This document shows, piece by piece, positions 22,002 through 25,910 of a stretch of 29,998 nucleotides of DNA (position 1 is the first letter of the stretch; each line of letters starts with the position of its first letter). A program made the position numbers and the translations under genes. Source of the stretch: a virus; the IMG/VR virus record IMGVR_UViG_3300009285_004373, positions 1-29,998 of that record; one strand, 5' to 3'. The notes under the pieces are model-generated. The model searched no databases, was not told where the DNA came from, and was given only the letters and a program-made list of their open reading frames with translations.

Positions 22002-23479
22002 TATTCAGGCTCCTGATTTTTAGCATCCAACTCCGCTTGTCTTTCGGCGTCGTAGTTCGGGTCTTCTGCTTGTGCTTGTTTGCTTCTTGCGATCTTCTCT
22101 TGTTCCTTCACAAAATCATAGCCAAGTTTACCGGCTATTGTTTCGTCAGAAGCCCAACCCATCGTTGAGTGAATTTGATAAGCTTCGGTATCCGTCTTAA
22201 GCTCCTTGTGTATCATCTGAGGAAATTCGATGCTTGTACTTGTCTTCGTCAGTACAACGGTTTTAGTTTCTGTTTGGAGAGCCTGGTCAATTGCCTCTCT
22301 GATCGCTTTGAGTTTCTTCGGTATTAACTTTATAACCCAACTTTCATACAACTTAGTTTCAGTCGAAGTCGCTGGGATAACTTTCTTAACAAGCAACCGC
22401 TCAATTACTTTTCTAAAGATGGCTTGAAAGTAAATTGCAAATGTATCTTGTAGATCCTCGATGCTTTTAACGTATGGGTTTTCTGAGACTAAAGTACTGG
22501 AATAATTTGCATTGGATGCGTCTGCTAAGAGAAATTCAGGAGCATTTAATCCAGAACAAATCGAAAGCTTAATCAGTCTTGCGTCTTCCTTGCAATCGTC
22601 CGCTCTTATCTCAGGGTTGCACCATTTATATTCAATTGATTCATTATGTACAATTACTGAACCAAGTTTCGGCATCTTCTTTGAAGCGGTAGAAACACCC
22701 GCATCGATTTTTGCATCACTCATTCCATCAGAAACGGATTGAACCTTATCCGCTCCTGCCATTTTACCTTTCACAATCTTCTCAAGAATGTGGCCTGCTG
22801 CGATACGATTCTTACGGGTGCGTCCTTCTATAAAGTCGTCCAACTGCACTAGCCTTTTAATCACCGGCTCCATATACGAGCGGCCTCGCTTCATGTTCAT
22901 GTCTACATTTAATTTTATATGTATAACGTCCGCTGAAGGTATTGATTCATTTGAAACGGTTGTTGCGCCAAGAGCAGTCCATTGTCTTTCATACGATTCA
23001 ATTGTCTCGTTATCTTCAGGGTCTCTCTTAATGTCAACAATTTGTTCAGGCTCAACAAAACGAATCTGGCAAGTTCCTGAAGAAGACTCAAAGAAACGTA
23101 TGAAGACCTCGCCGTCTCTTAAAGCCCGACGGACAATCTCTTTCTGCCTGAGTTCCATATTATTTGAGGGATTATTCCAAAACTGGTCCAGAGATTCTTG
23201 TACAATTGGATTTTCGTCTTCAGAGTGATAAACAATTCCCGAACCAATAATATAATGTACGGCGGATTCAACCAAGCAACGTCCCTCGGGAGTCTTCCAA
23301 TACCGGTCACGGCTATTGGTTAAAAGTTGTATGCGTTCTTCGGTTGTTAATTCCTTCTCAGCTTTCGGATCACCAATCTTATTCCAGGGGCCGTCTTTAT
23401 TAAAATCTCTGTATGTTTCGGAGAGCATCATCTCTACTCCGTTTTCCACTATCTTCTCGCTAAATTTATTTATTGCCAT
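22001..23479 (-). CDS. Portal protein
   Basis: 492 residues. It forms the ring through which DNA enters and leaves the head. Order (large terminase, portal, MuF) and sequence agree: YWKTPEGRCLVESAVHYIIGSGI, a RRALRDGEVFIRFFES strand, FVEPEQIVDI, the VIHIKLNVDMNMKRGRSYMEPVIKRL segment and a long stem helix near 375-400. The C-terminus is polar and disordered. ATG 23479 has GGAG upstream and overlaps the terminase by 10 nt. Confidence 0.88.
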   Translation of the reverse strand: MAINKFSEKIVENGVEMMLSETYRDFNKDGPWNKIGDPKAEKELTTEERIQLLTNSRDRYWKTPEGRCLVESAVHYIIGSGIVYHSEDENPIVQESLDQFWNNPSNNMELRQKEIVRRALRDGEVFIRFFESSSGTCQIRFVEPEQIVDIKRDPEDNETIESYERQWTALGATTVSNESIPSADVIHIKLNVDMNMKRGRSYMEPVIKRLVQLDDFIEGRTRKNRIAAGHILEKIVKGKMAGADKVQSVSDGMSDAKIDAGVSTASKKMPKLGSVIVHNESIEYKWCNPEIRADDCKEDARLIKLSICSGLNAPEFLLADASNANYSSTLVSENPYVKSIEDLQDTFAIYFQAIFRKVIERLLVKKVIPATSTETKLYESWVIKLIPKKLKAIREAIDQALQTETKTVVLTKTSTSIEFPQMIHKELKTDTEAYQIHSTMGWASDETIAGKLGYDFVKEQEKIARSKQAQAEDPNYDAERQAELDAKNQEPE

Positions 23480-25521
23480 ATATTATCCACTCCATTTTCG
23501 AAGACCTCTTCTTGAGGCTCCTCTTTCACTTCACCTGTCATCAATTCCGTTATCGCCCAAACCAACGCATCTAACTTGTTCGGGCTTTGTCCTTCTCCTG
23601 GCTTCCAAGTACAGTTATGCACTAATATTCCGTTTGCAAAAAATTCATTGTCATCTTCAACTGTTAAATCATAGACTGGCAGCAGCAAGTTCTTTTTTTG
23701 AATACTTTTTATAAAATGCTTTTCTACATTTGGGTGTACAGAACATAGAACATTGCCCGAAAGAACTGTATTCTTTTTCACAGTTTTTGCATATATGTAT
23801 TTTTGATACTTTGTTTTTCCATTGATTAGTTGATTTCTTGCTGTGTTGTTCTTTCGACCAAACAGCAATTCCGCTAAGCAAATGTTTTGCACGATGTTCT
23901 TTTCGTGTAAGACTTTCAAGATTTTCAATTTTGTTGTTTGACCTGTTTTCATCTTTGTGATGTATGTCATATCCTTTAATAATTTGTCCGTTATGATATT
24001 CCCAAACATCTCTGTGCATACAGGTTGCACCACACGACCTTGACAATTTATAATATCCGTCATTAGCTTTGTAATATTTATTATGGTTGAATTTCTGACA
24101 CAATCTAATTGGCTTTTGCGACATAACAACACCTCGCTATTTTTATTAAGTTTGTCTGCTCTTATATATCCGTATTGTGTATATACTTTATGATTACCTG
24201 TTAAATATAAAACACGATTTGCTACTTTCAATTCATAAACTTCTTTTATTCCTGTTAAACCTGCTTTAATGACTTTTTTAAATCCATTTCTTGTTAGGAC
24301 ATAATCACCTTCACAAATGTTCTCTATTTTTTTTATACCTTGTAATACTGAAACTTCTGTTCCTTGTGCTAAACAAAGTTCGTCTTCAAGAGCTATGAAT
24401 TGTTCACAATGAAACACGTTGCCGTTCGCGTACATCGCTGAAATCGGTTCTGCTCGCACTGCCTTTCCTCGAGAAGCGTTAACCAAAATAACGTTAATGT
24501 TCTTTTCACCGAACTTCGTTATCGTTGCTTCTACCATATCCCCGCCGAAGTTCTTTTCAGCAGCGACAGCGTCCGCTTTCACCAAGTCGTAAACGTCCGC
24601 CACTTCATCTCCCCATTCTTTGGGAGACCCGTTCAGGCTACGTTCAGCAATAACATAAATCTTCTTTTCTTTATCGATGCCAGCTGCTACAATACCAACT
24701 TCGTCGCCGTCAATCGAGCCTGAAGGGTCAACCCCAACCACAACCCTGACCAAGTCTTTAGGAGCCGGTTTATAATGTATCCACTTCCGCTTCCAAAGTG
24801 ACCCGTCATCACTGGAGTAACCACCTTCGAGGAATCGTATTCGCTTCACACCGCTGAGGTTCTTTAACGTATCAAAGAGCGTTGAACTAATATTTTCTTT
24901 ATTGTCAAAAGGATTAATCTTAATCCATTTATAATCGTCGTCAGGCACCGCTCTTCCGTCTGGGAATCTGCGGTCGTGAAATACTTTGTATCCCCAATGC
25001 TGCTTCGAAGGAGGATTGTAATCAATCCAAAACCTAGGAGCCACACCTCGAGGCGGATTCAAACGAGTCATTAGAGTTTCGATTGAGTCAAAAGCAATCT
25101 GACTTGCCTCATTTACAAAGATCGTTGCGAACTCATTACCAAGTATCTTTTCTACCCTATCTTTATCGTCCAGCCCTCCTACAATTAACACCGAATGTAG
25201 TATTTTACCGTTGGGCTGTTTGATATTATATGTGACCGTTAAGTCCGATTTATTAAGCTCGTAATGCACATGCTCCCGAAAACCCAACATCCGATGAACT
25301 TTCGGCAACGTCTGCACCCACAAACTTTGACGAGCATGCTTGAACCGTAATCTCAAAGCAACGTGCCATGTTTCTGGATAGTGTAGTGCCCGTATAATCA
25401 TGTTTCGAATAATGAGTACAGTTTTTCCTGACCGTGTTCCACCTTCGAGTAAAACTGTTTTATACCTACCCATCAACCGAGAAGCTTCTCTTTGCTTCGG
25501 TGTTAAAATCAAAGAACTCAT
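23470..25521 (-). CDS. Terminase large subunit interrupted by an intein
   Basis: 683 residues before splicing, 429 after, the usual size. The ATPase has Walker A GGTRSGKT (27-34), a Walker B-type strand ATIFVNEAS (132-140) and the coupling segment FWIDYNPPS. The nuclease has VVGVDPSGS (D265), AVAAEKNFGGD (E322, D329) and KLDALVWAITEL (D651, which becomes D397 after splicing). The intein splits the conserved LEDEL/CTW segment just before the last catalytic Asp, so the protein cannot be a complete nuclease until it splices. It overlaps terS by ATGA and the portal by 10 nt. It drives DNA packaging and cuts the concatemer. Confidence 0.95.
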   Translation of the reverse strand: MSSLILTPKQREASRLMGRYKTVLLEGGTRSGKTVLIIRNMIIRALHYPETWHVALRLRFKHARQSLWVQTLPKVHRMLGFREHVHYELNKSDLTVTYNIKQPNGKILHSVLIVGGLDDKDRVEKILGNEFATIFVNEASQIAFDSIETLMTRLNPPRGVAPRFWIDYNPPSKQHWGYKVFHDRRFPDGRAVPDDDYKWIKINPFDNKENISSTLFDTLKNLSGVKRIRFLEGGYSSDDGSLWKRKWIHYKPAPKDLVRVVVGVDPSGSIDGDEVGIVAAGIDKEKKIYVIAERSLNGSPKEWGDEVADVYDLVKADAVAAEKNFGGDMVEATITKFGEKNINVILVNASRGKAVRAEPISAMYANGNVFHCEQFIALEDELCLAQGTEVSVLQGIKKIENICEGDYVLTRNGFKKVIKAGLTGIKEVYELKVANRVLYLTGNHKVYTQYGYIRADKLNKNSEVLLCRKSQLDCVRNSTIINITKLMTDIINCQGRVVQPVCTEMFGNIITDKLLKDMTYITKMKTGQTTKLKILKVLHEKNIVQNICLAELLFGRKNNTARNQLINGKTKYQKYIYAKTVKKNTVLSGNVLCSVHPNVEKHFIKSIQKKNLLLPVYDLTVEDDNEFFANGILVHNCTWKPGEGQSPNKLDALVWAITELMTGEVKEEPQEEVFENGVDNIWQ
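23614..24375 (-). mobile_element. Intein in the terminase nuclease domain (254 residues)
   Basis: It runs from C383 to N636, followed by extein C637. Block A is CLAQGTEVSVLQGIKKIENI with EGDYVLTRNG; block B is LYLTGNHKVYT (Thr441 and His444); block F/G is VYDLTVEDDNEFFANGILVHN, then Cys. These are all the residues needed for Cys1/Asn/Cys+1 splicing. The penultimate residue is His. No in-frame LAGLIDADG or HNH domain is present between blocks B and F; that stretch is read in another frame as an HNH gene. Insertion at the LEDEL/CTW joint is in a highly conserved site, as is typical for inteins. Confidence 0.93.
23669..24124 (-). CDS. HNH homing endonuclease nested out of frame inside the intein
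   Basis: 151 residues in a different frame of the same strand as the terminase. The HNH motif reads CMHRDVWEYHNGQIIKGYDI, HH at 55-56, ENRSNNKIENLESLTRKEH (N64, H77), which is the standard HNH_3-type active site. The C-terminus has a Cys-rich zinc-binding segment (CKNCEKEYSSFGQC, CTPKC). ATG 24124 has its own GAGGTG site 6 nt upstream. The gene starts right after splicing block B and its stop lies inside block F, so it fills exactly the interval where in-frame inteins carry their endonuclease. The terminase frame is open all along it, so 455 nt are read in two frames. Confidence 0.88.
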   Translation of the reverse strand: MSQKPIRLCQKFNHNKYYKANDGYYKLSRSCGATCMHRDVWEYHNGQIIKGYDIHHKDENRSNNKIENLESLTRKEHRAKHLLSGIAVWSKEQHSKKSTNQWKNKVSKIHICKNCEKEYSSFGQCSMFCTPKCRKAFYKKYSKKELAAASL

Positions 25522-25910
25522 AATTTCTCGTCGTCTTTATTAAAATCTAATATTATTGCGCCGCCATCCTCTCCTGTGTGTTCAAGTTTAACCTTTACGG
25601 GCCCAATAATTCTGTTCAGCATTTTATCAAGCGTGTCATAGTTAAAAGATTTTATTCCACCAAGGATACAAGTACAGATATAAACATCAAGCGACGTAGA
25701 TTTACCATCTGTCACAATATTCTCTAACTTATCTTTCGGCGCATGAAAGTATTTTGTAACACGTTTTATAAACTCATCAGTGGTTAGCTTCCTTAGCTGC
25801 CTGGCTTCTGATGACATTCTACATCCCATACTTTTAGGCGGCGGATTACCCGGGCCCCAGTCGCGGCCGCCCGTCTTTTTACATCCTGGCTTTCTGCCTC
25901 TCGTTGCCAT
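25518..25910 (-). CDS. Terminase small subunit (putative)
   Basis: 130 residues directly upstream of the large terminase with an ATGA overlap. The N-terminus is basic and Gly-rich (GRKPGCKKTGGRDWGPGNPPP), a common feature of small terminase-type proteins; the rest is mainly helical. It should bind the packaging site and load the large subunit. ATG 25910 has GAGG 10 nt upstream, just after a transcription terminator. The family call rests on position and N-terminal pattern. Confidence 0.72.
   Translation of the reverse strand: MATRGRKPGCKKTGGRDWGPGNPPPKSMGCRMSSEARQLRKLTTDEFIKRVTKYFHAPKDKLENIVTDGKSTSLDVYICTCILGGIKSFNYDTLDKMLNRIIGPVKVKLEHTGEDGGAIILDFNKDDEKL

Follow-up and report, generated by a model that had tools for sequence, protein, structure and literature searches.

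In the textbook form of a mobile intein, the homing endonuclease is a domain that lies in frame with the splicing domain. A different arrangement, reportedly set out by Dassa et al. in 2009 (as cited in PMC10448857), is the 'fractured gene', in which split inteins have a free-standing endonuclease gene between their halves. The TerL inteins of mycobacteriophages described so far carry in-frame LAGLIDADG nucleases (PMC5050341), and an out-of-frame HNH gene has been described in a methylase, as the ShiLan element, for which the authors report neither intein splicing motifs nor an intein fold (Arsenault et al. 2025, PMC11855218). Here, we describe a terminase (TerL) intein with an HNH endonuclease gene nested inside it in another reading frame. 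It is encoded in 29,998 nucleotides (nt) of viral DNA (IMG/VR record IMGVR_UViG_3300009285_004373, positions 1 to 29,998), the whole of which is referred to below as the window.

We propose that this is, very probably, a mobile TerL intein whose homing endonuclease is encoded by a gene nested in a second frame rather than by an in-frame domain. The layout is widespread: over 150 distinct phage inteins were found to have an out-of-frame nuclease, of one of three kinds. The parts of the locus in the window are as follows, with lengths in amino acids (aa) and with open reading frame abbreviated to ORF.

23470..25521, minus strand: TerL precursor, 683 aa, one contiguous ORF with the intein included
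24376..25521, minus strand: N-extein of TerL, 382 aa, C-terminal end ...ALEDEL
23614..24375, minus strand: intein, 254 aa, C1 to N254 (from PF14890, TIGR01443 and an alignment of 29 inteins)
24190..24201, minus strand: splicing block B, TGNH (T59-H62; intein alignment)
23638..23676, minus strand: splicing block F, VYDLTVEDDNEFF, containing VYDL (intein alignment)
23611..23637, minus strand: splicing block G, ANGILVHN, with the +1 Cys of the C-extein (alignment and TIGR01443)
23470..23610, minus strand: remaining C-extein, TWKPGEGQSPNKLDALVWAI... (TerL translation and empty-site comparison)
23669..24124, minus strand: nested HNH endonuclease ORF, 151 aa, +2 relative to the TerL frame, with its own ATG and stop
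23894..23962, minus strand: HNH catalytic motif, HHKDENRSNNKIENLESLTRKEH (invariant columns)
23726..23791, minus strand: four-cysteine zinc-finger motif at the HNH C-terminus, C112, C115, C129 and C133 (invariant columns)
24130..24135, minus strand: Shine-Dalgarno (SD)-like GAGGTG, 5 nt upstream of the HNH ATG
24137..24139, minus strand: TAG in the HNH frame, 12 nt before the ATG, limiting entry by frameshifting

Between blocks B and F, where a bifunctional intein would have its endonuclease in frame, a profile search of the TerL frame found no recognisable nuclease or other domain; the HNH sits at +2 instead. The nested ORF matches PF13392 (HNH_3, E=1.6e-15) and PHROG 15471 (E=8e-21), retains the HNH and zinc-finger residues that are invariant in the columns of the homologue alignment, and produces an AlphaFold model (pLDDT 86) with I-HmuI as its top solved match (E=3.4e-3, probability 1.00); we regard it as a predicted nuclease of the HNH_3 family. 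Its stop, TGA, is supplied by the Y-D codons of block F (TATGAT), and the in-frame TAG upstream of its ATG means that the ORF cannot extend far in that direction. The initial annotation, drawn from the sequence alone, had read the locus in just this way, with a B-F interval that is open in the TerL frame but devoid of a recognisable endonuclease, a complete HNH protein encoded at 23669-24124 in another frame of the same strand, and GAGGTG and ATG following block B with a stop within block F; the ORF, the profile searches and the sequence itself bear out each of these points, and the layout so described is supported.

The intein is recognised by the splicing model PF14890 (Intein_splicing, E=1.2e-11) and by the C-terminal model TIGR01443 (NCBIfam, E=3.9e-9), both above cut-off. 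C1, T59xxH62, block F and the HN/C junction are all present, and the splicing residues are conserved across the 29 aligned inteins. Its flanks read ...ALEDEL upstream and CTWKPG downstream, and an 'empty' site is provided by the homologous TerL of Synechococcus phage Ssp-JY42, which reads LEDQM/LNM with no insert, against LEDEL/intein/CTW in the window. Both Hint halves are modelled with a pLDDT of ~95, the linker between them being mostly at 40-75 (low confidence), and the top Foldseek matches of the model are the Ssp DnaB and Mtu RecA mini-inteins, with E-values down to 1.5e-7. By its motifs and its predicted fold, then, this would be a Hint-type intein that splices in cis; the host gene is a single 683-aa ORF without a stop, and not the pair of gene halves that a split intein would require. 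No significant Rfam match to a group I or group II intron was found at 23300-25600. The host ORF itself has profile matches to Terminase_3, Terminase_6N and Terminase_6C, and is followed by genes for a lambda-type portal protein and a Mu F-like protein, which identifies the locus as a phage packaging module.

Related loci were collected by scanning IMG/VR and GTDB contigs with a five-sequence alignment of nested HNHs, and IMG/VR with an alignment of intein N-blocks; a search of IMG/VR with the TerL of the window alone gave no match. After removal of redundancy, 103 contiguous inteins were found to hold an HNH between their splicing blocks; the nuclease lies in the frame seen in the window in 95, in the other alternative frame in seven, and in frame in one. 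Exteins tie at least 96 of the 102 out-of-frame cases to TerL; those of the remainder are short or divergent. Cultured phages are represented by Acinetobacter phage Highwayman and Rhodobacteraceae phage LS06-2018-MD07, in both of which the HNH is out of frame within an annotated terminase, and by Tetrasphaera phage TJE1; the first two, together with the window, define three distinct insertion sites in TerL. Among the hosts of the genome contigs are Bacteroidota, Bacillota, Pseudomonadota, Nitrospira-type and Gemmatimonadota bacteria, as well as Patescibacteria and two archaeal lineages. The intein-seeded scan, which returned 57 non-redundant inteins, contains 40 with an out-of-frame HNH, nine with an out-of-frame Vsr-like nuclease, five mini-inteins without a nuclease, one in-frame nuclease and two truncated sequences.

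Some individual loci are worth recording. The sole in-frame HNH of the HNH set, on an Armatimonadetes contig (L162:818-2083), is perhaps a fused derivative. Two loci (L114:1331-4732 and L184:1422-4748) each have one gene with two inteins and a separate out-of-frame HNH in each of them, and a Nitrosotalea contig (L138:1-4284) has a single ORF with both a LAGLIDADG match in frame and an intein holding an out-of-frame HNH.

The nine cases with a nuclease other than HNH are all helicase inteins. Each carries an ORF of 200-235 aa out of frame, in the relative frame opposite to that of the window; the C-terminal part of this ORF belongs to DUF559/MTES_1575, a Vsr-like endonuclease family, and a phmmer search of the PDB with it gave no match. 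Pooled with a scan using the Vsr-like ORF, these loci amount to 53 non-redundant contiguous helicase inteins with the nuclease out of frame and none with it in frame; cultured examples are Pseudomonas phage MR14 and Vibrio phages 103E44.1 and 1.194.O. The loci are listed here on one line.

L226, L229, L233-L238, L240, L249-L251 and L263-L345: helicase inteins with a Vsr-like nuclease ORF

A third architecture, NUMOD4 with HNH_3, occurs as an out-of-frame ORF in a second intein near the TerL start of two terminases (L199:1608-2513 and L241:1284-2168). The HNH_3, Vsr-like and NUMOD4-HNH cases together indicate that the layout arose with no fewer than three types of nuclease architecture, and that it did so in two host genes and in either alternative frame.

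Substitution rates were compared frame by frame. Across eight independent pairs of close relatives the HNH frame has an omega of 0.24 (p=4e-42) and the intein N-block one of 0.26; over the overlap, these same pairs give 1.78 for the intein frame and 1.84 for the unused third frame, a pattern repeated in 12 overlapping pairs. The Vsr-like inteins behave likewise, with six pairs giving 0.25 for the nuclease frame, 1.5 for the intein frame, 1.1 for the unused frame and 0.46 for the N-block. At the same time the intein frame stays open: it is so in all 95 nested HNHs, openness being a condition by which this set was selected, against an expectation from shuffling of 5.6 with their own codons or 1.8 with TerL codon usage; not one of the 95 has an open third frame. 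The intein frame is open too in 54 of 54 inteins with an HNH from the intein-seeded scan, and in all nine of the Vsr-like helicase inteins, where almost none would be expected; the corresponding frame of free-standing HNH relatives is open in one of 57. From omega and openness together it follows that the nuclease and the splicing domain are selected as proteins, and that the linker frame is selected solely to lack stops. The idea in the initial annotation that the overlap is 'constrained in both frames' therefore survives for the HNH, which is conserved as a protein under purifying selection, but not for the intein frame, which avoids stops without being conserved at the protein level.

The two-frame anatomy, its recurrence and these two forms of selection are what the analysis shows; splicing, nuclease expression and homing are inferred, and might proceed as follows. 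A ribosome that starts at the TerL initiation codon would read the HNH region as a stop-free but meaningless linker of ~125 residues, and the flanking Hint halves, with their intact splicing residues and fold, would then splice the intein out to leave mature TerL. A second ribosome, entering at the internal ATG after block B, would make the free HNH, as suggested by the SD-like site, the positions of start and stop, and the purifying selection on the product. Most likely, the HNH would then cut the intein-free terL of co-infecting relatives, such that repair copies the intein and its HNH together.

Several observations pull the other way. For the single copy in the window, synonymous shuffling of the HNH leaves the TerL frame open with P=0.008 (own codons) or P=0.034 (TerL codon usage), which is modest beside the overwhelming case that the family makes; the HNH of the window is also divergent, and has no well-supported sister in the tree described below. 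SD-like sites are enriched but not universal, being found before 44% of nested starts and 26% of controls (32% and 8%, respectively, for sites of at least 5 nt); many of the matches come from Bacteroidota, and SD sequences are little used in that phylum. Finally, the intein sample was seeded from carriers of nested HNHs, such that the 49 out-of-frame cases among its 50 nuclease-bearing inteins do not measure prevalence among inteins generally.

The history of the HNH bears on the alternative that survives best, namely that it is a 'second-tier' parasite which homes into HNH-less mini-inteins and does not move the whole intein into an empty terL. In its favour, mini-inteins at similar sites lack the insert alone; moreover, the nested state forms clusters in a tree of 163 HNHs yet is interleaved with free-standing and split ones, with 27 changes of label in all, at least four of them forced for the nested label (the deep branches are weak). 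Against this, TerL is usually the immediate neighbour of the full-length free-standing relatives, which is consistent with terL as the target, and one nuclease could do both. We hold this alternative to be unlikely, albeit one to be taken seriously.

Under our preferred reading, of a mobile intein with its homing nuclease nested out of frame, a plausible course would be that an HNH gene beside terL entered a mini-intein out of frame, and thereafter either persisted by homing or, through a break in the linker frame, gave rise to a split intein. A split terminase intein, its halves flanking the HNH or overlapped by it, is found in Vibrio N4-like phages and at L039 and L125, and looks like a related state. 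In Vibrio phages 1.238.A and 1.245.O (L016:146-3874 and L017:146-3874) the terminase is split by an intein, and an unannotated HNH ORF overlaps the ends of both halves. In Brochothrix phage BL3 (L018:727-2607) gp2, annotated as terminase, ends in an intein N-half, and gp3, annotated as an unknown protein, consists of an intein C-half and the end of TerL; the terminase is apparently split, and of the HNH only a zinc-finger remnant is left between the two. A further locus, nrdA of Campylobacter phage CP20 (L174:1187-5254), is a ribonucleotide reductase gene broken inside an intein N-half and with small ORFs ahead of the remaining half, and is possibly a fractured gene.

Proximity to TerL could also be taken to mean that the HNH is a packaging nuclease of the HK97 gp74 type, working with the terminase, and that the intein is its incidental host: HNH genes are often found beside terminase, and some of them take part in packaging (Kala et al. 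2014, in the form cited in PMC12613952), and the free relatives do adjoin TerL. Such a role fits poorly with the sporadic occurrence of the HNH and its nesting in inteins at several TerL sites, with the HNH_3 and zinc-finger composition and the match to I-HmuI, and with the Vsr-like nuclease of helicase inteins, a parallel that has no connection with packaging; we give it a small chance.

How the HNH is translated separates internal initiation from programmed ribosomal frameshifting, by which the HNH would be made as a fusion with TerL and the N-half of the intein. A single mRNA does contain both overlapping frames, and a clear SD is missing from many nested ORFs. However, in nearly all inteins the HNH starts at +218 to +307 nt, within or just past block B, and the nearest upstream stop in its frame, 12 nt before the ATG in the window, usually lies 0-39 nt 5' of the start in relatives; this speaks against frameshifting, in that the shift would be confined to a tiny and unconserved interval. 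No slippery heptamer was seen between the upstream stop and the HNH ATG, and in the window this ATG has a 6-nt SD-like site. The 3' ends are similarly regular, mostly falling 37-94 nt before the intein end and most commonly at 61 nt, where the conserved Y-D codons provide TGA. We reject frameshifting as improbable, and independent internal initiation is, judging by these sequence features, the likeliest route.

The Lys/Asn-rich coding sequence of the HNH leaves one alternative frame relatively poor in stops, and openness might on that account reflect amino-acid composition alone, with the HNH as a decaying passenger. We reject this as highly improbable given the excess of open frames over the shuffled expectation and the low omega, and since none of the nested HNHs is split between two frames; homologues with an HNH frame full of stops and an intact intein frame were likewise not seen, inteins without a nuclease having the whole insert missing. 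That missed indels displaced an ordinary in-frame endonuclease, which the origin of the window in a single contig would allow, can be dismissed as having next to no likelihood, for it requires two compensating errors in a linker frame that is open throughout, and is refuted by the recurrence of this frame relation in over 100 independent sequences, some of them finished genomes of cultured phages.

What emerges is a stretch of DNA with two duties, encoding a selected nuclease in one frame whilst merely avoiding stops in the other. In such an element nuclease production would be uncoupled from protein splicing, and a free-standing endonuclease gene could enter an intein without having to match its frame or its fold. 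It also offers a simple route to split inteins, in that one stop or frameshift in the linker would leave two halves around a nuclease gene, the state seen in relatives. Nested nucleases have been overlooked by annotation: in Highwayman, LS06-2018-MD07, TJE1, MR14 and Vibrio phages 103E44.1 and 1.194.O the host gene alone is annotated at the site.

A search of open-licence papers found no description of a contiguous intein with an out-of-frame nuclease, the nearest being the non-intein ShiLan element (PMC11855218) and the other result a phage announcement (PMC12613952); an earlier description elsewhere is possible, and we regard this as an apparently undescribed form of mobile intein. It shares with ShiLan an HNH in another frame of an insertion that is kept open in the frame of the host gene, and presumed homing, but ShiLan has a GTG start and no detectable ribosome-binding site (PMC11855218), whereas the window has splicing motifs and its nested gene is enclosed by a complete Hint domain, such that the linker is expected to be spliced out. 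With I-HmuI, an intron-encoded HNH, the similarity is one of predicted fold; the window has no group I intron by Rfam, and removal would be expected at the protein level. Bifunctional TerL inteins have the same gene, the same Hint domain and the same place for the nuclease between blocks B and F, but in the window-type inteins the HNH (or Vsr-like) gene is in a different frame with a start and stop of its own. Fractured genes likewise have a separate endonuclease gene at the B-F position, Vsr-like enzymes being found among them too, but here one uninterrupted ORF spans intein and nuclease gene alike, and splicing would be expected in cis. We think it probable, if less firmly than we hold the reading of the window itself, that out-of-frame nesting constitutes a major class of mobile phage intein, overlooked so far, at which at least three nuclease architectures have arrived independently, and that it is the 'missing link' that connects free-standing homing endonucleases, bifunctional inteins and split-intein fractured genes.
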